From contig LSSK01000552.1 of assembly GCA_001969505.1 (NCBI GenBank), positions 1 through 48,943 of the forward strand: 48,943 nt of DNA, in the 5' to 3' direction. The notes under the pieces are model-generated. The model ran no database searches. It worked only from the letters and a program-made list of their open reading frames with translations, and had not been told where the DNA came from. How positions within the stretch are numbered: the first letter of the stretch is position 1; each line of letters begins with the position of its first letter. This DNA comes from Zancudomyces culisetae (taxonomy: Eukaryota; Kickxellomycota; Harpellomycetes; Harpellales; Legeriomycetaceae). A program made the translations under genes and the position numbers. This document shows positions 22,587 through 35,597 of the stretch, in pieces.

Positions 22587-24029
22587 TTTTCCAACTTGGT
22601 TGCCAAGTTATTCTGGCGCATCCCCTGTTGATATCGCTTTATATACTTCCTATAATTGAAAAGGGTCGCTGATAACATTAAACTTAAGCTATTTCTATAA
22701 CTTGATGTCCTTTGTCTCACAGGATGTATTTTTTTTCGAAGTATGACCCCGATTAAAATGTTGAAGTGCTTGGTGCCAGTGAAAAGTTGTATATCTTCTT
22801 ATGTATTGTAAAGTAGCCTGAAACAAAAAATAATAATAGATGCTAAACCTGAAAGATATCAATGCTTTATATTAGAAAAGTGATACACTAATTATCAAAA
22901 AAGTTTATATTATTTCTAACTCCGAAACCCACTTTATATTGATATAATGGAAGGGATGTTATATAACTAAGTTCTTCGCACTCACTAAATCTAGTCCAGT
23001 TGAATTTAAGAATACAAAGATCGCTGGCCATTTTGCTTAGTTTTTACACAAAAGCATTGGGTTCTTTTTACTGCGAGTTTGTTTTCTCGTCGGCTCTAGA
23101 CACATTTTAATAAAAGTCAGTTGCCAATATTTGAAAATGGCTAGCAACAATGATAATCCGAAACTAGTTGAAAATAGTCAACCCGGATATCACTCGCACT
23201 TTGTAGAATAGAAATCTGCTACAGGGTGGCAGCCTGCTTCACACATTTCCTACGCATATATATTTTCTTTATCTTTCTCTTATTTTTTTTTTTGCAGAGC
23301 GCAAATGTCATTTGGCGACTTTAATATTTTATACGTTATTTCCAGCTTTGCAATACAATATAATCTGCAAATTGCTTCAGAGGGGTGAGAAAAAAACAGC
23401 AGTAATCCAATCCTTCATAAAGAAAAAAAAAACTAGGTTCATATTCACTATTGGTATTTTTTGGGTCTTACTTTAAGAGCATTGGGTACAATCCAAATGA
23501 TTAATGTAGGGCACACCTTAACTGAGCAAAATTTCAACTGAATGATACAAGCCCCATACAATAAAAATGAAAGCACCAAAATACTCTACACTCTGTTAGC
23601 TTAGGCTTAAGCCACTGCAGAGGTTAGTAAAGTCAAAACCAAAACCAAAACCAAAACCGTACCGAATCTTATAGTGCTTGACAAGTATCAGTGCTAATGA
23701 CCTCAACAGTCCCAAACGATGATACAGCTGCTATCACCTCAAACACAAAGCTGATGGGATGGTTCAAACGCTCAGGTTTTTGGACTGTTCTCTGTGCTTT
23801 ATTTCGGCATCACATTATATAACATTGGGTCTAGATGGTTAGGGAACCTAGCTTCCTTTAATTATATCCCCCCAAACAAAACGGATATTATTACCCAATT
23901 AAATTGTCTTGTTTTTTTTCCATAGAGCTTTTCATTTATTTGCATTTTTATTCTCAGTCATTGGCCAGCTAGCTTTTTGGCGAAAAAAAATTTTTTTTAC
24001 ATCAAAACAAGCGGAAGGGGATAGGGATG
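22587..24029. other. Region upstream of NIPA gene and RNA locus
   Basis: No protein gene is supported. A 7-bp perfect inverted repeat (AACTTGG/CCAAGTT) sits at 22593-22609 just before the NIPA start. CATTGGGT words occur at 23055-23062, 23480-23487 and 23823-23830. Four AAAACC copies lie at 23635-23658. A TTATATAA element at about 23811-23820 could be a core promoter for the RNA locus downstream. An A8/T8 palindrome lies at 23983-23998. Confidence 0.4.
23635..23658. repeat. Tandem AAAACC hexamer (4 copies)
   Basis: Four exact copies of AAAACC. The reverse complement, GGTTTT, occurs three times in tandem at 30365-30382 downstream of the second GNAT gene. These short arrays are telomere-like in form only; they are internal and may be simple slippage products. 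Confidence 0.7.
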
Positions 24030-24078
24030 GTAAGGCATGCATTTGGTACTTTTTTTTTGTGAAAATTTTTTTTTTAGC

Positions 24079-24086
24079 TATAAAAG
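24079..24086 (+). promoter_or_regulatory. TATA-like element upstream of MRP RNA
   Basis: TATAAAAG about 40 nt before the predicted RNA 5' end. It could serve a Pol II or type-3 Pol III promoter, but the distance is slightly long for the latter and AT content makes chance matches common. Confidence 0.35.
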
Positions 24087-24118
24087 CAAAATAAAAAGAA
24101 AATAATCAGGTTTCTAAA

Positions 24119-24510
24119 TAAGAGACAACACGAAGATTCGCTTTATACATCGGGGTTTTACTTATGGGGTCATCCTGCCTATGGTGGGGTGTCTCTGTAT
24201 CGACCCTGGGGAAAGTCCCCGGACAAGTTTGGCAGAAAGTGCCAGCCGTAAAGGTAAACATGCAGGTCTACTTCGATTTCAACCGACAATTCGTTCTCTT
24301 TTGGCGTAGAAGTGTGGATGCTTCTGTTTCTGAAAATGGAATTTGAGTGTGTTTGCACCGAGCCTGGTTCGTTTTGGTTAAGGTTGGGATGTTGTGAAAT
24401 GCCAATTGTCATAGCAAAGTTATGCGAAATTAGTGCTTTGATAGATAGAGAGTTTCTCTCTGTTTCTCACGCTCTAACCTCAACGGGGCTTACTCTTGTG
24501 TTGTTTCTAC
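24119..24510 (+). ncRNA. RNase MRP RNA
   Basis: The core at 24205-24244 (CCTGGGGAAAGTCCCCGGAC, then TTTGGCAGAAAGTGCCA) is nearly identical to the human MRP RNA CR-I/P8 region. Helix P4 forms between 24213-24220 (AAGTCCCC) and 24485-24491 (GGGGCTT) with U24216 bulged, as in all P/MRP RNAs. The P8 loop holds the MRP-specific GARAR motif (GAAAG, 24235-24239), which separates it from RNase P RNA. Positions 24121-24133 pair with 24496-24508 as a 13-bp closing helix P1 with two wobble pairs, which sets the ends to about 24120 and 24510 (about 390 nt). The product is the catalytic RNA of the nucleolar RNase MRP, which cleaves pre-rRNA at A3 and some mRNAs. A TATAAAAG sequence at 24079-24086 may be its own promoter; see findings for a possible intronic location. 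Confidence 0.95.
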
Positions 24511-24550
24511 AAACCTAACATACTTTTGGATTTTCAGAAGAGAGGATTAT

Positions 24551-24569
24551 CTTTCTGTTTGACAGAAAG
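24551..24569 (+). other. Perfect 8-bp hairpin in first host exon
   Basis: CTTTCTGT and ACAGAAAG flank the loop TTG. It lies 40 nt downstream of the MRP RNA 3' end, at the start of the proposed host exon. It could act in 3' processing (for example as an RNase III substrate separating MRP RNA from the host) or be incidental. Confidence 0.45.
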
Positions 24570-24644
24570 AACCAATTCTAAGAAAAGTCAGTAAACTGTA
24601 AGTACCTATTATCTTTATTTGAGCTTTTATTTTTTTTAAAAATT

Positions 24645-24720
24645 TGCGATATGATGTCAGAATTTCTTCACCCGAATTTAATGTGGAACATTTTTCTTGA
24701 GCTTTTTAACCCTGATCGCA
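24645..24720 (+). ncRNA. Box C/D snoRNA, snR47/U36 homologue
   Basis: Box C ATGATGT at 24651-24657 and box D CTGA at 24712-24715, enclosed by a 5-bp stem (TGCGA 24645-24649 with TCGCA 24716-24720). The guide before box D contains GAGCTTTTTAAC, complementary to 18S GUUAAAAAGCUC; the fifth base upstream of D pairs with the first A of AAAAA, which counts to yeast 18S A619. The guide before D' (CCGA, 24672-24675) contains GAATTTCTTCAC, complementary to 25S GUGAAGAAAUUC, and selects the second A of GUGAA, yeast 25S A2220. These are exactly the two targets of yeast snR47. It is intronic in the proposed host transcript. Confidence 0.93.
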
Positions 24721-24901
24721 TGCCATTTTTATTTATTGTTTTATAATTTTATGAATCATCTTGGTTCTTGTTCACATAGCTAACGTTTGAATTTCAACTA
24801 CTATTTAGTGTGCGTTTGACAAACCTTAAGGCTCTGGCTTTCTTAGAGAATCTTTTCTGGAAATTCTTTTCTTTTCACCGTAAGGTGTTATAAGAAGCGG
24901 A

Positions 24902-24980
24902 CAGAATGATGAAGATAAATCAAAGGCTTAATATATGAAACCGTAGATTTGGCATTTGCCATGTCTCGTTACTGAAAATA
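24902..24980 (+). ncRNA. Candidate box C/D snoRNA, possible new 18S guide
   Basis: A perfect box C (ATGATGA, 24906-24912) and box D (CTGA, 24972-24975) lie within the intron 24880-25043, with D 68 nt before the 3' splice site. The terminal stem is weak. The guide before D contains GTCTCGTT, complementary to 18S AACGAGAC; N+5 selects the G in AACG, two bases from the known U30 target (human 18S A1383). Only 8 nt of match to recalled rRNA, but the next bases fall in a variable part of 18S. No convincing D'/C' pair. Confidence 0.6.
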
Positions 24981-25213
24981 TCTCTTGATTTGTTGCTGAC
25001 TTTTCGCTTTTGTACTTGAAATTTGGTGTTTCAACTATTCCAGAGCTACTGGCTTACGGTTGGTAAACATCGAATGTTAAGCTACAGCAGTGTATTTCTT
25101 ATTTTTTTGTATAATAAATCTGACTTTGTGGACTTGCAATTTCCAACTATCAGCTTTTTGAAGGTAATTATATGCTACTTTATGTACCATTTATTCAATA
25201 GGCATTTTTTGCT

Positions 25214-25310
25214 GTATTATTGATGACAACATTTGTTTTCCAGGATAGCAAGATAGCTCTCTATCCGATGAGCGAAGCAAATACCTTCTAAGAAGCCCTG
25301 AACTTTTATA
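25214..25310 (+). ncRNA. Box C/D snoRNA, U61-like
   Basis: Box D CTGA at 25298-25301 follows CCTTCTAAGAAG (25284-25295), which pairs with 18S CUUCUUAGAGGG over 12 bp with one wobble. The fifth base upstream of D pairs with the second U of CUUC, human 18S U1442, the target of SNORD61. Box C is imperfect: UUGAUGA at 25220-25226; a second CCGATGA at 25265-25271 may be C'. D is 77 nt before the 3' splice site of intron 25164-25378. Guide evidence is strong, box C evidence moderate. Confidence 0.75.
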
Positions 25311-25462
25311 CATGTTTATTATTGACGGTTCTCTTTTTTAAAGAAAAGATTTACTAATCTTTCTTTCTTTCTATACAGGGTAGATGACGCAAGGCTCTAG
25401 TAGTCGTTGGCTTCAAGCAGAGTAACAAGGTAATTACAATTCACATTATTTGTGAACCTGCC

Positions 25463-25560
25463 ACTAGATGATGTTTTTTAGTTTAATATCTGTCAATCCA
25501 CTGAAGACATTTGTTGTCTATCATGTTGATTCGTTTTTATACGACCTGTTCTGAATTATA
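25463..25560 (+). ncRNA. Dual-guide box C/D snoRNA for 18S U1269 and G1428
   Basis: All four boxes are visible: C ATGATGT 25468-25474, D' CTGA 25501-25504, C' ATGTTGA 25523-25529, D CTGA 25551-25554. The D' guide contains ATCTGTCAATCC, complementary to 18S GGAUUGACAGAU, and N+5 selects the first U of GAUUG (yeast U1269; human U1326; snR55/U33). The D guide contains GACCTGTT, complementary to 18S AACAGGUC, and N+5 selects the first G of GGUC (yeast G1428; human G1490; snR56/U25). D is 78 nt before the 3' splice site of intron 25430-25632. No strong terminal stem is seen. Confidence 0.88.
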
Positions 25561-25720
25561 GCACCATTGTTTATTTAATGAGTTTATATTTCAACACTTT
25601 TCTAATCTAAATTCATTATTTTTTCCATGTAGGTATTTCTCGCTTCCCTTTTATTATAAAAATGTTGACATTTATATGAAAAATCTTTATTAAATAAACA
25701 AAATATCAGCCATACTTTCT

Positions 25721-26089: not shown

Positions 26090-26794
26090 TTACTCCAATT
26101 CCAACCATTCTACAAGTTCCTTTTTCAAGTATGAGTTCCATTGGGTTTCGTAAATGGCATATTCGTAACTATCTATGTAGTGATTGTCCATAACGAGCAC
26201 CTCTGACAATACATACTCAAGAGGAACCTTTGCAACCTTCTCCAGCCATTTTCGCATTGGTATGTTATCTTTGGTAGTTTTAAACACAACTTTATGAAGC
26301 TTCAATACATCAAAGCTCGTCTGTAGACAGTGGTAGATTGCCTCGCTCCCATATCCACCCTTCCACATTCTATGATCTAAAATTATCCCAACTTCAGCAT
26401 TTGCCGATCTTAGGTCGATATCTTTGAGGCCACAATGTCCGATTATTACAAAATCCTCGTCAATACCATTTGTCCCGGCCTTTAGTATCTCTTCTTTGCT
26501 GAATTTGTCTACAAGGCTACCTAGATTCTTCACGGTAATTGCAATTGCAAAAGACAAATCTTCACCAAGTGCGTTTAGTCTTTCTCTATTTTTTCGTCTT
26601 TCTACGACTTCCTCGTGTGACCAACCTTCTGGTGCCTTAGCCATGAACATTAAATACTTCATTGTTTCAGGACAACTTAGTATCCGCTGTACTGATGCAT
26701 CTGTTGTCTCGTTGAACGGCACGAGCGCTAACCTCTTTCCGTGAATTGTGTATGAGGTTGGCACAGTTATTTCGTCGTTGGGATAGTTTATCAT
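26090..26794 (-). CDS. GNAT-family N-acetyltransferase (RimJ/RimL type), paralogue A
   Basis: 234 aa, single exon. The N-terminal part (GKRLALVPF, LSCPETMKYL) leads to a GNAT core: VIIGHCGLKDIDL (beta-4), NAEVGIILDHRMWKGGYGSEA, where the GGYGSEA stretch is the acetyl-CoA pyrophosphate loop (R/Q-x-x-G-x-G/A family), and LKLHKVVFKTTKDNIPMRKWLEK (beta-6/alpha region). Such proteins acetylate small molecules or protein N termini; the substrate is unknown. It is about one-third identical by eye to the gene at 29642-30358, which is placed head to head across a 2.85-kb non-coding gap. The start codon begins the segment INYPNDEITVPTS, which is conserved in the paralogue. Confidence 0.85.
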   Translation of the reverse strand: MINYPNDEITVPTSYTIHGKRLALVPFNETTDASVQRILSCPETMKYLMFMAKAPEGWSHEEVVERRKNRERLNALGEDLSFAIAITVKNLGSLVDKFSKEEILKAGTNGIDEDFVIIGHCGLKDIDLRSANAEVGIILDHRMWKGGYGSEAIYHCLQTSFDVLKLHKVVFKTTKDNIPMRKWLEKVAKVPLEYVLSEVLVMDNHYIDSYEYAIYETQWNSYLKKELVEWLELE

Positions 26795-29641: not shown

Positions 29642-30358
29642 ATGGAAAAACTAGTCAACTACCCAAATTCGTCGGTAAAGATACCAACTGATCTGTCCTT
29701 GGTTGGAAAAACGGTTGTATTGGTTCCAATGGACGAAACTACAGACCAGGGTACGTTTAGGGTTCTAAATTGCCCCAAGACGCTAAAATTCTTGAAATAC
29801 ATGCAAAATAGTCCATACGGCTGGACGATGGAGCAGATAGTTGAACGTCGGAAAGTAAAGAACGAAATGCAGGAAAGGAATGAAACAATATATTTTGGTC
29901 TGGGTGTGCTCATTAACGGAAGGGCAAAGATTAGAGAAATGGTTGACGAAAATGATATACTGATAAAGAACATAAACGGAATAGAGTGCGAATATTCAAT
30001 AGTAGGAAACTGTGGAGTTCACCATATGGATTTGAAAAACGGGAATTGCGAGCTGGGAGTAGTGTTAGAACGGAAATTTTGGCGAAAAAAATTGGGAACC
30101 GAAACATGTTATCTGGTATTACAGTACATGTTTGAGAAAGTGGGTGTTCATCGGGTTTCGTTTTATACAATAGAAAAGAATACAAATATGCGTGGATGGT
30201 TGGAAATGCTGTGCTGTAAAAAAGTAGAAGCTATAGTTAAGGATCATACATATACGGATGGAGAATACGTGGATTCATATGTATACTCGGTTTTTGATCG
30301 TGATTGGTACTCGTATCTACGTGATAAGTTGTGTAAAGTAGTCAATGATGCTTTATAA
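29642..30358 (+). CDS. GNAT-family N-acetyltransferase (RimJ/RimL type), paralogue B
   Basis: 238 aa, single exon. The order of conserved segments matches paralogue A: VNYPNSSVKIPTD, LVPMDETTD, LNCPKTLKFLKYM, PYGWTMEQIVERRK, SIVGNCGVHHMDL, NCELGVVLERKFWRKKLGTET and the YVDSYVYSVFDRDWYSYL end. In the acetyl-CoA loop it has KKLGTET where A has GGYGSEA, keeping one of the two loop glycines. A duplication followed by substantial divergence is the simplest reading; the inverted orientation suggests an inverted duplication. Substrate unknown. It is followed by three GGTTTT repeats at 30365-30382 and an A/T palindrome at 30421-30439. Confidence 0.84.
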   Translation: MEKLVNYPNSSVKIPTDLSLVGKTVVLVPMDETTDQGTFRVLNCPKTLKFLKYMQNSPYGWTMEQIVERRKVKNEMQERNETIYFGLGVLINGRAKIREMVDENDILIKNINGIECEYSIVGNCGVHHMDLKNGNCELGVVLERKFWRKKLGTETCYLVLQYMFEKVGVHRVSFYTIEKNTNMRGWLEMLCCKKVEAIVKDHTYTDGEYVDSYVYSVFDRDWYSYLRDKLCKVVNDAL

Positions 30359-31319: not shown

Positions 31320-34300
31320 ATGTTTGTAAATATGGTACACGAATTGAAAACAGAAATAAGGAATATAAAGAACCAAATAACTTTGGCACAGACAAATGTT
31401 AAGAAAAGAGCAGAAGTGCTGATAGCCGTTGAGGAGTCGATAAGAGAGCAGCAGAGAAATGCAGGCGAAAGTATAGAAGGAGAAATAAACGCTTCAAGCT
31501 ATGTAGCAGCATTATTGGCACTGTTGGATCAGCAGCAAAAAAACGACATAGAAATACAGGAAGGCAATGTTGAAGCAAACGAGGTGAAAGAGGCAATAGT
31601 GTATCTGATTGGAAGGGTAATACAGTATGTGCCAGAAAAGGTGTTACGCAGCCAATATTTTAGGATTATGGGTATTTTGAGTAATTCAGTAGATTTGAGC
31701 AGTGCTACTGAGACTGAATTGGTATCAATAATCTCGAGCATGGAAGCTTTGTTAAAGGGTCTGGACAGAAATGGGTGGCAACAGAGTGTCTCGTATAAAG
31801 GGTTGCAGGCAATTTTAATAATGTGCTTGGATTCAAGAGAAGAAGTACACAAAAGAGGAATAGAAGCGGTAAAAGTAATTATGCAGGAGGGATCAAAAGC
31901 AAAAGGCAAAAACACAAGTCAATCAAAATTGCAAAGTCAACACCCTATGGCAGTTGATAGTATAACTTTTGCAATGGAGATGCTAGAGAATGGACTTCAA
32001 CAGCAAGATGGAGCGGGTGGTGTTGATATAAGACAAGTCAAGTTAGTTTCAGCACTTTGTAGTGCTGTTCCAAAAGAAAAACTGGCATATATGGTATGGA
32101 GATTGATGGAGATAGCGACAATCAAAAATAAAGAACAACAGCAACAGCAACAACAACAAAAGAAGCAAAGAATTGGTGAAAATGGTGTTCATAATGGAGA
32201 TGCAAGTATTGAAGATGATGAAAATGAAGAGTTGGAAGAATTGGAAAAGATAGTAGAAGGGCTTATTGAAGGAATCCATCAATTGTTTAAGGCAGCAGTA
32301 GAACTAAAAGAAATAAACAAAGTAAAAGAACTTGTAGAGCAGTTGAGAAAGCAAAAGCCAGGAGCTAATAACAGCAGTGGTGGAGGAAATAGTAATGAAG
32401 GGGTGGGAGCGGGTGTAGGCAAGGCAATAGATGCAGAGATATGGATACGAGTGATGGAGGTGGTGGTTGGAGTAGAATACATCGAGGGTGTAGAGAGTAT
32501 GGAGTATTTGGGATCAGAGACGGCTGTTTCAGTGTTAGATGGAGCGCAAGTGTTGAATATATTTAGGGATATGAAGGGGTATTTAGAAACAGGTACTCAA
32601 CGAACCAAAAAGGCAGCTGCAAAGGGGATGAGGAGAATAATTCGAGAAAAGATAGTTACCAACTATAGCGGTAATAGCAGCGCGAATTTGCAAGCCATGA
32701 TGACAATGGAACAGGAGATTGGAAAAGAACTGGAAGAAGCGATGGGATACCAATATAGAAACGAATGGAAGGAAGTGTTCAAGCTAATTAGAGAATACAT
32801 GTATGTAGGACAGCCATTGTTGCCACAGACAGAGCCACAAGGGGTTAGTAATGAAGAAGTTAAATCACAAAAGAAAGGATTAAAGATGGTCAAGCTTAGT
32901 GAACAAAAGCAAAAAATAATTGAACATGTGGCAGCGATGCGCGGAGATCTAAACCAGCCGTTTAATGTTCAAAACGAAGTTGATAACATGTTGACAGCGA
33001 GTGTTAGAGCACTGGGACCACGGCAGTTCTTGCAGGTTCTTCCGTTGAATCTCGAGGCAATATTGACAAAGGATTACAGCACTAGTCGAACATGGGAGTT
33101 GCCATTGATGAAGGGAGGTATACAAGGAGCGGAAATTGGACACTTTATAAATGAAATGATACCAAGAGCAGACATGATGGGGCAGCAGAGCCGGGAGTTG
33201 TTGGTGTTGTCGTTATCGAGTGGACAGGATTCGGGTAATAACAGCAATGGTAAAGCAATACAGGCAAAAGTGCTCAAAACAATAGAAATGCAGATTTGGG
33301 ATTTGTTTGTGGAATATACTAGTAACAACCCAGTGGATGTAGAACAGAGTGTTACTAATGAGTTTATGCAGGAAATGATTAGACGTATTGTAGCAACACC
33401 TCAATCCATTGACAACAACGACAACAACAACATTATTAATGGTAGTGACAATCAATCCATAGCTATGGCTGACGAGGAAACACGTATCAAAGAAATGATT
33501 GTTAGTGGATTGAGAGGGCTGGCCAAGTATACAAAGACACTGATGCAGTCACAATCCGACAATTTGGGTACTACCAGTAACTGTGTAAATGTGGTGGTAC
33601 AGACAGCTCCTCAATTGATTTCAATTCTGTTTAATGAGTTGAATAGCAATGATTCCAATAATAATAATAATAATAATAATAGTGGTATAAACACCAGAAC
33701 AATAAATGCAGAGTTGATTAAGGAGACGGCTCGTGAGTATTTGGGACTTTGTAGCGAGCAGCAAGTTGTAGAATTGTACGGACAGTTGGATTCCATGGTT
33801 AACAACAGCGTTTCCAGTATAACCAACGGTGATAAAGATAGCAACGTTGATCAGGTATTGGTGATACTTGAGGTGTTGATTATTATAGCACCGTATTTCA
33901 ATTCGGAAATTGCTCAACAAATATTGAACAAGTACCTGGTTCTACTAAGTAACTCTGATAGTAGCAGCAGCAGCAATGATTTGTTTGATAATCAAGAGTT
34001 AAAAAGAAAGGTTTACAAACTAATAACCGAAGTTATTGGCAAGCTGGAAAACCAACCTTTAGTCATCCATGAGGTTTTGAAATCAGTTGTTATTTCCAAA
34101 AGTAATGATGCAAGCAATAATGCCTCCAGGAGTGGAGGGGAAGTATCCTTGGGGTTATCTGTGAATATCAAGGATCGTATAAAGCTGATTACAAAGTTGA
34201 TTGAAATGCAAATCCATGCTTATTCATCATTCCAGAATTTGGAGATTAGTACTCAAATGAATAGTGAAGCGGAAACTGTAACCAAACTGCTTATTGGAGA

Positions 34301-35597
34301 AACAGTTGTATACACCAAAAACATTAACGAAAAAATTCGGGTTTCAAGTCTTAAACTCTTGGAAAATATTGCTAAACTTACTATTCTTCGATTCAACATT
34401 GTAAATGGTAGTGGTAATGGAGGACTAAAATGGGTAATTGATGTAGTGGCTGCAGGTTTAGCTTCTCAATCTGCTGTAATGATATCCGCTACAATCAATA
34501 GCATTACACACTTGTTGTTACATTATTACAACGCCGAAACCAGCGAAAATAACAATAGTGTTGAAGGACTGGCGTATATCAACGAAATCTTTGATACAGT
34601 CATCTTGTTCATTACAAAAGATGTTTCTTCAAACAAGAAAAAGGACGGTAGTGGAAATGTCAAGAATAAAAAGAATGGAAATAAATCCGTTGGCAATGGC
34701 AATGGTAATGGTAATTTTGATGCTAAGAACTCGCATGAAATCATAAATAAATCAATCCTCAACTTTTTCAAGACTTACTCATCACTTATCAAGACTCAAA
34801 TTGAAAAGAATCGGCTGATGGTAATGTTGGAATTTATAAAAACTCATAATTATGGTAAAGGTAACAAGTACCTGTTGGTAAAATTTATCAAGATCTTTGG
34901 TAACGACTACATTTCACCACTCTTTATCGCCCAAAATCAGAACCAACCAGGTTCAAATACCCAGGAACTGTTGTCTCACTATAGACGGTTTTATAATAGC
35001 GTGGTCAGATTGATGAATCCAAACACCAACAAGGATGCCGATACTCTTGAACTCGATAACCTTACTGGTGGCAATAAAAATGGCAAAAAAGAAAAAAGAG
35101 ATAAAAGAAGAAATGCTCAACAAAACAAACAAATGCTTCTTGACGACTATATCTCAAATAACACCAATTCCAACACCAACAATGATAATGGTATTGATGA
35201 TGATGGTGATGGTGGTATGGCTATGGACTTCCTTTCCAAATCTGCCTTTTCTCGTTTTACAACCTTTAAAAATAACTCAAATAAAGGTTTGTTTGGCAAT
35301 GACGATGATGGAATCAACATTGATTTTAAAAATGGCAAACTTGTCGTTCCTAATGAACAATCACCAACAGATAACAATACCGGAAACCAAAATGACACCA
35401 AAAAACCATTTTCCATGTCAATGTCAATGTCAATGTCACATTCAACAAATAAACAACAAAAAGGTGTTGCTAATAGAATAAAAGATGCAAAGAAAAAGAA
35501 AAGCGATACACTAAAGAAAAATGCACGGTTCCAACCATATGCATACATTCCGCTCTCTGGAAAACCAAACAAAAACAGAAAACTAGTCAAAAACTAG
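31320..35597 (+). CDS. RRP12: Ribosome biogenesis/export protein RRP12
   Basis: 1425 aa from the first ATG at 31320 (a second in-frame ATG at 31332 is also plausible). HEAT-repeat protein with the NUC173-type region. Typical segments: ILIMCLDSREEVHKRGIEAV with HPMAVD downstream, NMLTASVRALGPRQFLQVLPLNLE, TWELPLMKGGIQGAEIGHFI, and the C-terminal FQPYAYIPLSGKPNKNRK, which matches the RRP12 tail. RRP12 binds pre-40S and pre-60S particles and helps export them from the nucleus. The gene is intronless. It carries a Gln tract near residue 272 (32136-32160), Asn tracts (33651-33680 and others), and a Met-Ser repeat near the end, all coded by simple repeats. Its stop is only 5 bp from the stop of PEP4 on the other strand. 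Confidence 0.93.
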   Translation: MFVNMVHELKTEIRNIKNQITLAQTNVKKRAEVLIAVEESIREQQRNAGESIEGEINASSYVAALLALLDQQQKNDIEIQEGNVEANEVKEAIVYLIGRVIQYVPEKVLRSQYFRIMGILSNSVDLSSATETELVSIISSMEALLKGLDRNGWQQSVSYKGLQAILIMCLDSREEVHKRGIEAVKVIMQEGSKAKGKNTSQSKLQSQHPMAVDSITFAMEMLENGLQQQDGAGGVDIRQVKLVSALCSAVPKEKLAYMVWRLMEIATIKNKEQQQQQQQQKKQRIGENGVHNGDASIEDDENEELEELEKIVEGLIEGIHQLFKAAVELKEINKVKELVEQLRKQKPGANNSSGGGNSNEGVGAGVGKAIDAEIWIRVMEVVVGVEYIEGVESMEYLGSETAVSVLDGAQVLNIFRDMKGYLETGTQRTKKAAAKGMRRIIREKIVTNYSGNSSANLQAMMTMEQEIGKELEEAMGYQYRNEWKEVFKLIREYMYVGQPLLPQTEPQGVSNEEVKSQKKGLKMVKLSEQKQKIIEHVAAMRGDLNQPFNVQNEVDNMLTASVRALGPRQFLQVLPLNLEAILTKDYSTSRTWELPLMKGGIQGAEIGHFINEMIPRADMMGQQSRELLVLSLSSGQDSGNNSNGKAIQAKVLKTIEMQIWDLFVEYTSNNPVDVEQSVTNEFMQEMIRRIVATPQSIDNNDNNNIINGSDNQSIAMADEETRIKEMIVSGLRGLAKYTKTLMQSQSDNLGTTSNCVNVVVQTAPQLISILFNELNSNDSNNNNNNNNSGINTRTINAELIKETAREYLGLCSEQQVVELYGQLDSMVNNSVSSITNGDKDSNVDQVLVILEVLIIIAPYFNSEIAQQILNKYLVLLSNSDSSSSSNDLFDNQELKRKVYKLITEVIGKLENQPLVIHEVLKSVVISKSNDASNNASRSGGEVSLGLSVNIKDRIKLITKLIEMQIHAYSSFQNLEISTQMNSEAETVTKLLIGETVVYTKNINEKIRVSSLKLLENIAKLTILRFNIVNGSGNGGLKWVIDVVAAGLASQSAVMISATINSITHLLLHYYNAETSENNNSVEGLAYINEIFDTVILFITKDVSSNKKKDGSGNVKNKKNGNKSVGNGNGNGNFDAKNSHEIINKSILNFFKTYSSLIKTQIEKNRLMVMLEFIKTHNYGKGNKYLLVKFIKIFGNDYISPLFIAQNQNQPGSNTQELLSHYRRFYNSVVRLMNPNTNKDADTLELDNLTGGNKNGKKEKRDKRRNAQQNKQMLLDDYISNNTNSNTNNDNGIDDDGDGGMAMDFLSKSAFSRFTTFKNNSNKGLFGNDDDGINIDFKNGKLVVPNEQSPTDNNTGNQNDTKKPFSMSMSMSMSHSTNKQQKGVANRIKDAKKKKSDTLKKNARFQPYAYIPLSGKPNKNRKLVKN

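Follow-up and report, generated by a model that had tools for sequence, protein, structure and literature searches.

The RNA of RNase MRP is usually described as independently made. We analyzed a locus of the fungus Zancudomyces culisetae (positions 24030 to 25720 of contig LSSK01000552.1) in which this RNA lies directly upstream of a predicted spliced, non-coding host of box C/D small nucleolar RNAs (snoRNAs); our window is the whole 48,943-base contig (C28), one of 859 in a 23.1 Mb assembly. Among the closest described arrangements is that of Saccharomyces cerevisiae, where the MRP RNA gene NME1 is an RNA polymerase II (Pol II) gene and, to our knowledge, neither it nor its neighbor SNR66 involves introns. 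The two genes are adjacent on the same strand (YNCN0013W and YNCN0014W in the accessible part of a gene table, PMC9731477) and snR66 is a C/D snoRNA (accessible text of PMC4330371). Consequently, an MRP RNA gene beside a C/D gene is not new. The Z. culisetae locus shares with this pair an MRP RNA gene next to a same-strand C/D RNA gene, and differs in that the guide RNA is another one; the accessible literature naming both yeast genes held no statement about their co-transcription.

Other systems resemble parts of the locus, each in accessible text of the source. At the mamRNA/snR107-snoU14 locus of Schizosaccharomyces pombe, the RNase III Pac1 is recruited to a hairpin that spans an exon-exon junction, and cuts it (PMC12508059). 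Our locus likewise appears to be a mixed host with intronic C/D RNA, an exonic RNA and a hairpin from exons flanking an intron. However, the exonic RNA of S. pombe, a C/D snoRNA, follows the intron, whereas ours, MRP RNA, would precede it, our stem is predicted before splicing too, and its cleavage is something we infer. In insects and crustaceans, RNase P RNA, the sister ribozyme RNA, derives from a host transcript made by Pol II instead of a separate RNA polymerase III (Pol III) gene (PMC4287351, PMC6797745), much as we propose for MRP at the locus studied here; that RNA is intronic in recipient genes, while MRP has Pol III signals in 26 of 26 insects (PMC4287351). Fungal snoRNA clusters are also polycistronic with introns, one including snR55, although clusters I-III carry another snoRNA set and their description mentions neither MRP nor snR47 (0 mentions each in the text seen of PMC3596301). 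In Auricularia, MRP is grouped with further small RNAs (RNase P RNA, SRP RNA and U14), one of them possibly a snoRNA, but in a ribosomal DNA spacer and not in a spliced snoRNA host (PMC9849065). The literature searched, as far as it was accessible, yielded no account of a transcript shared by MRP RNA and snoRNAs. Of the novelty claimed in the original prediction, made from the DNA letters alone, the adjacency is thus already known from NME1/SNR66, and the shared transcript is the part for which no precedent was found in that literature.

We consider it about even, perhaps slightly better, that the locus is a single Pol II unit extending from the vicinity of the MRP 5′ end to about 25715, with MRP RNA as its first, exonic product and the snoRNA host behind it. 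We favor shared transcription on two grounds: TATAWA is absent between MRP and the host, and folding predicts that exon 2 pairs with the sequence flanking MRP on its 3′ side. The MRP RNA, C/D elements, splice signals, promoter-like elements and structure described below were observed in the sequence or predicted from it, and RNA family identity was judged by Rfam score against the family cut-off. The products and the host are laid out as follows.

24121-24508, plus strand: RNase MRP RNA, with ends taken from the predicted P1 helix (Rfam covers 24123-24505)
24509-24597, plus strand: putative first host exon, downstream of MRP and, on the favored reading, continuous with it
24598-24808, plus strand: intron 1 (GTAAGT ... 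CTAAC ... TTTAG), from sequence signals
24646-24720, plus strand: snR47/SNORD36 box C/D RNA (Rfam 60.3 bits, cut-off 30)
24809-24879, plus strand: host exon 2, bearing the 3′ arms of both stems
24880-25043, plus strand: intron 2, donor GTAAGG, from sequence signals
24902-24976, plus strand: C/D RNA of intron 2, recognized by its boxes (box C at 24906, box D at 24972; ends approximate)
25044-25163, plus strand: host exon 3, from sequence
25164-25378, plus strand: intron 3, donor GTAATT, CTAAT branch-like site, from sequence signals
25215-25305, plus strand: U61-like box C/D RNA, with boxes (snoU61 21.8 bits, below the cut-off of 55)
25379-25429, plus strand: host exon 4, from sequence
25430-25632, plus strand: intron 4, donor GTAATT, CTAAT branch-like site, from sequence signals
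25463-25534, plus strand: snoR14-like C/D RNA (25.7 bits, below the cut-off of 40), with CTGTCAATCC before CTGA and a distal box D, TTGA
25633-25715, plus strand: last host exon, AATAAA at 25693-25698, probable 3′ end

The MRP RNA matches Rfam RF00030 over the full model (1-266), scoring 92 bits where the cut-off is 50, and is the only above-cut-off MRP match in the whole genome; two weak matches (L002 and L003, 25.8 bits) fall below every Rfam cut-off. Its P1 helix, 24121-24131 with 24498-24508, is predicted with pair probabilities of 0.89-1.0, and only 89 nucleotides (nt) separate the end so defined from the first intron. The Rfam matches of MRP RNA and snR47 lie on the same strand with 140 nt between them; the head-to-tail order first described, MRP RNA directly upstream of the host, holds.

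The snR47 RNA carries both box C and box D and is a C/D snoRNA. The RNAs of introns 2, 3 and 4 have boxes and Rfam scores below cut-off; in all, one of the four C/D RNAs scores above its family cut-off, two have only below-cut-off family matches and one is defined by boxes alone. The last, in intron 2, has box C ATGATGA and box D CTGA, and its lone Rfam row (sR52, 16 bits against 50, E 4.1) is at chance level. The original proposal of one C/D RNA per intron is borne out for snR47 and tentative for the other three. The CTGTCAATCC sequence in the RNA of intron 4 is presumably an 18S guide of the U33/snR55 type. Donors at 24598, 24880, 25164 and 25430 and acceptors ending at 24808, 25043, 25378 and 25632 are all present as sequence signals, as had been proposed; for intron 1, the acceptor at 24808, preceded by CTAAC at 24781-24785, seems a better candidate than the one at 24780. 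The four C/D RNAs lie 67, 73, 88 and 98 nt from their acceptors, and every reading frame of the spliced host is interrupted by stops. A strict scan for splice signals returned 36 candidate introns, from which we took no more than an approximate idea of intron lengths and signals.

Three promoter-like elements precede the MRP RNA.

23982-23998, plus strand: upstream A/T tract, G-A8-T8, from sequence
24061-24075, plus strand: A/T tract, G-A4-T10, immediately before the TATA box, from sequence
24079-24086, plus strand: TATAAAAG, putative Pol II TATA box, 42 nt 5′ of the MRP P1 helix, from sequence

The distance from TATA box to Rfam 5′ end is 44 nt for MRP (42 to P1), 39 for U2, 38 for U6, 40 for U5 (CATAAA) and 31 for the signal recognition particle (SRP) RNA (CATAAA), while RNase P RNA has no TATA- or CATAAA-type element in its last 100 nt upstream. 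Because the MRP distance is close to those of U2, U5 and U6, transcription probably starts near the MRP 5′ end. TATAWA is absent from 24100-24600, the nearest upstream one being that at 24079; therefore, no TATA box separates MRP from the snoRNA introns, and the snoRNA host lacks a TATAWA-type candidate promoter of its own.

MRP stands apart from the small RNA genes with which it was compared. These genes use different polymerases elsewhere. All five that were found (U2, U5, U6, SRP RNA and RNase P RNA, the last barely above its cut-off at 28.8 versus 28 bits) have CCCCATA(A/G) 65-92 nt before their Rfam 5′ ends; U1 and U4 were outside the search and U3 gave no match. CCCCATAR occurs 0 times in 157 kb of sequence outside open reading frames (ORFs), both strands, of one contig, and since the element was found in the same five genes, it is a description of them and not an independent test. 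MRP has no exact CCCCATA within 300 nt upstream and so does not show this promoter type; the nearest exact plus-strand copy, CCCCATAC, starts at 23552, 569 nt upstream. The A/T tract and TATA box before MRP plausibly constitute a Pol II core promoter, judging by sequence.

Several observations concern the small RNA genes themselves. The form CCCCATAA/G is common to RNase P RNA (L004), U6 (L005), U2 (L006), U5 (L007) and SRP RNA (L008), and is a candidate for an element of this fungus resembling the proximal sequence element. The predicted RNase P RNA contains a T6 run and the SRP match a T7 run, internal runs that fit Pol III transcription poorly unless terminators are longer here. A U14-like RNA on the minus strand (L040, C716:31932-32048) scores 36.7 bits, below its cut-off of 64, and its locus, inspected by eye, resembles a second non-coding host in which several introns carry C/D RNAs; A/T tracts and TATAAA lie upstream, and the closest upstream CCCCATA precedes U14 by 636 nt and one of the TATAAA sites by 179 nt. 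We also considered that the A/T tracts might be a ribosome-biogenesis element (the ribosomal RNA processing element, RRPE), and dropped this reading since the A/T-tract-TATA pattern is no more frequent than its reversed control and the genes behind those of its sites that were inspected were, by eye, mixed.

The second line of evidence is a predicted structure that joins the MRP 3′ flank to exon 2 across the snR47 intron.

24528-24543, plus strand: predicted 5′ arm of a 16-pair stem, partner 24851-24866 in exon 2
24550-24570, plus strand: predicted 9-bp hairpin inside the junction structure
24577-24591, plus strand: predicted 5′ arm of a second cross-intron stem, partner 24834-24847

The outer stem has 16 consecutive pairs, wobbles included, with probabilities of 0.86-1.0, and spans 24537/24538 unbroken; its pairs have the same probabilities with MRP attached, where P1 also forms. 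When 24512-24597 is joined to exon 2, the fold reaches −46.2 kcal/mol (z −4.27), none of 1000 shuffles of the separate parts being as stable and 1 of 1000 having as strong an interaction. The interaction energy of 24512-24597 is −21.5 with exon 2, compared to −7.3, −5.9 and −3.4 with exons 3, 4 and 5. The junction of exon 1 (24538-24597) and exon 2 alone folds at −38.9 kcal/mol (z −3.88; 0 of 200 shuffles); separate shuffles were as stable in 1 of 1000 and interacted as strongly in 2 of 1000, and genomic non-coding pairs did so in 1 and 3 of 1000, respectively. In these folds starting at 24538 the outer stem is shorter, 10 pairs in another register. None of the three other host junctions has such a structure (z 0.51 to 1.09). 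In a first test, the number of pairs formed across the junction did not stand out significantly (a fraction of 0.245 of the shuffles had as many), while the energy did, and the stand-alone fold of 24506-24600 is unremarkable (z −0.96), only the folds with exon 2 standing out. Because four junctions were examined and the region was enlarged once the first result was known, the fold statistics carry some selection. A structure from the exons that flank a snoRNA intron is therefore present as a prediction.

A single transcript could yield its products in the following way; where it starts, which polymerase makes it, that it is shared, that it is cleaved and by which enzyme are all inferred. The A/T tract and TATAAAAG (24061-24086) would drive Pol II, with a start at or near 24121, so that MRP would be a 5′-terminal exonic RNA keeping the transcript's own 5′ end. 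The non-coding host would be spliced four times, each intron yielding one box C/D RNA. Base pairing between the sequence 3′ of MRP and exon 2, on opposite sides of the snR47 intron, would create a double-stranded region starting 20 nt downstream of P1. An endonuclease, possibly an RNase III-type enzyme, would cut this region, and 3′ exonucleases would then shorten the MRP RNA to its P1 helix. The genome has four RNase III domain matches (on C776, C768 and C31), two of them in one long ORF whose fetched part has an intact RLEFLGDSVL motif. By eye, and on sequence, they appear to be one Dicer-like protein and two mitochondrial ribosomal relatives. It is a more speculative and rather doubtful extension that MRP release is coupled to the processing of the snR47 intron, the freeing cut being timed against splicing and promoter and structure together setting the ribozyme/guide ratio; we lowered our already small expectation of such coupling because the stem is also present in the unspliced fold.

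Some findings weigh against a single Pol II transcript cut at this stem. The 16-pair stem is equally strong in the unspliced fold, so that in silico its formation needs no splicing, and the stem alone does not show that splicing occurs. The two remaining RNase III-domain proteins have altered motifs (ERLEMMGKKVL and EKLAGLGKQIL), and no stand-alone Rnt1/Pac1-like enzyme is found among the RNase III domain matches in the genome. A degenerate CCCCATA-like sequence, TTTCCATAGAG, lies 206 nt upstream of MRP, a spacing unlike that in the other genes, with a score of 8.3, about that of the RNase P site under a matrix built without it (8.1) and less than the 95% point of random 400-nt windows (9.2). 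Genome-wide, the pattern GAAAATTTTT-N(0,30)-TATAAA occurs at 32 sites versus 38 for a reversed control, without enrichment, so this combination lacks the specificity of a motif. Of the 32 sites, 17 were inspected for nearby genes, and 6 of these have an ORF of ≥100 amino acids starting no more than 300 nt away, compared to 36 of 235 control TATAAA sites and 22 of 308 random positions. Finally, the CTAAC ... TTTTCAG sequence just after MRP is mildly improbable by chance.

The last point bears on the splice-like motifs that flank MRP, from which the original prediction had placed the RNA within a 508-nt intron.

24030-24035, plus strand: GTAAGG, the donor first proposed, from sequence, probably chance
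24514-24537, plus strand: CCTAAC (24514-24519) ... TTTTCAG, branch- and acceptor-like, from sequence, TTTTCAG overlapping the stem

The motifs on which that proposal drew are borne out in the sequence: GGTAAGG with its donor at 24030, TATAAAAG at 24079-24086, CCTAAC, and TTTTCAG ending at 24537. Under it, an exon would end at 24029 and an intron would span 24030-24537, MRP RNA being released by splicing, debranching and trimming, as insect RNase P RNA is. The G/GTAAGG donor and the CTAAC ... TTTTCAG acceptor are in the correct order, the CCCCATA element is missing at its usual distance, and an intronic origin is established for RNase P RNA in insects and crustaceans (PMC4287351, PMC6797745, accessible text). 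A CTAAC ... YAG without intervening AG is rare, at 0.159 per kb of non-ORF sequence, and is expected about 0.015 times in the 92 nt from the Rfam MRP end to the first donor. GTAAGN occurs 0.75 times per kb of non-ORF sequence, and a donor-like motif at 24030 is therefore unsurprising. The proposed intron would, however, enclose the A/T tract and TATAAAAG, and both bases of its acceptor AG (24536-24537) have a predicted pairing probability of 1.0, including in the unspliced fold, within a stem that continues past the splice site. As the stem spans 24537/24538, an intron ending there would split it, and TTTTCAG is explained as a stem arm. The 3′ flank of 29 nt from MRP to this acceptor is also shorter than the 67-98 nt of the C/D RNAs. 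We thus regard an intronic MRP as improbable and the 508-nt intron as probably wrong. Still less credible, and in our view very unlikely, is an MRP gene nested with its own promoter in a host intron 1, the RNAs being made independently. Such a gene would account together for the TATA box and the acceptor-like site, both being real, but it needs a host promoter and exon before 24030, where an A/T tract (23982) and TATATAA (23816) are seen and no exon, and it leaves the stem across 24537 unexplained.

A stronger competitor, though one we still hold to be unlikely, is that MRP and the host are separate neighbors, MRP having its own promoter and ending or being cleaved after 24508, and the host starting from its own unseen promoter in or just after MRP. 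It draws its weight from the own-gene signals of MRP in animals and an alga, namely the Pol III signals of the 26 insects (PMC4287351) and the uncapped intergenic MRP gene of Ostreococcus (PMC7671301), as given in the accessible texts. It also draws on the TATA box 42 nt before MRP and on TTTT runs after it at 24524 and 24531. Yet these T4 runs are shorter than the T8 after U6, only 89 nt separate the P1-set MRP end from intron 1 and no TATAWA is found in 24100-24600, and pairing with exon 2 is predicted for the MRP flank from 24528 onward. The alternative given in the original prediction, an independent MRP promoter with a downstream host start, is thereby supported in its promoter-like TATAAAAG and weakened in its host, which has no candidate TATA promoter. 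Its preferred claim of shared transcription is retained as the best reading, at the strength given above.

Beyond the locus, its 3′ end faces an acetyltransferase gene on the opposite strand, one of two GNAT acetyltransferase genes that lie near each other just downstream (26090-26794, minus strand; 29642-30358, plus strand). The same contig carries RRP12 (31320-35597) and a CBF/Mak21 family gene (1650-2240). The nearest named fungal proteins to the contig's glycogen branching enzyme are those of Smittium and Furculomyces (65-67% identity); higher bit scores were given by a record labelled Brassica cretica (55%, partial coverage) and another (51%), which we took as odd or contaminated. Eight contig pairs have identical matches to the A/T-tract-TATA pattern (for example C145/C280, C176/C390 and C449/C655), as if both haplotypes or duplicated stretches were present in the assembly. 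Exact-core searches of viral contigs gave 5 loci for MRP and 6 for snR47, none with an Rfam match at cut-off, and a plasmid search gave no match. The U3 and SNORD24 families had no match in the genome, which does not imply their absence, as control genomes gave none either.

If MRP RNA and the snoRNA host do form one unit, parts needed for ribosome assembly, the MRP RNA and methylation guides, may come from one transcript in this fungus. MRP could then come under the same Pol II control as the methylation guides, and the locus would offer a natural test of how a ribozyme RNA gains its correct 3′ end from a long spliced precursor.

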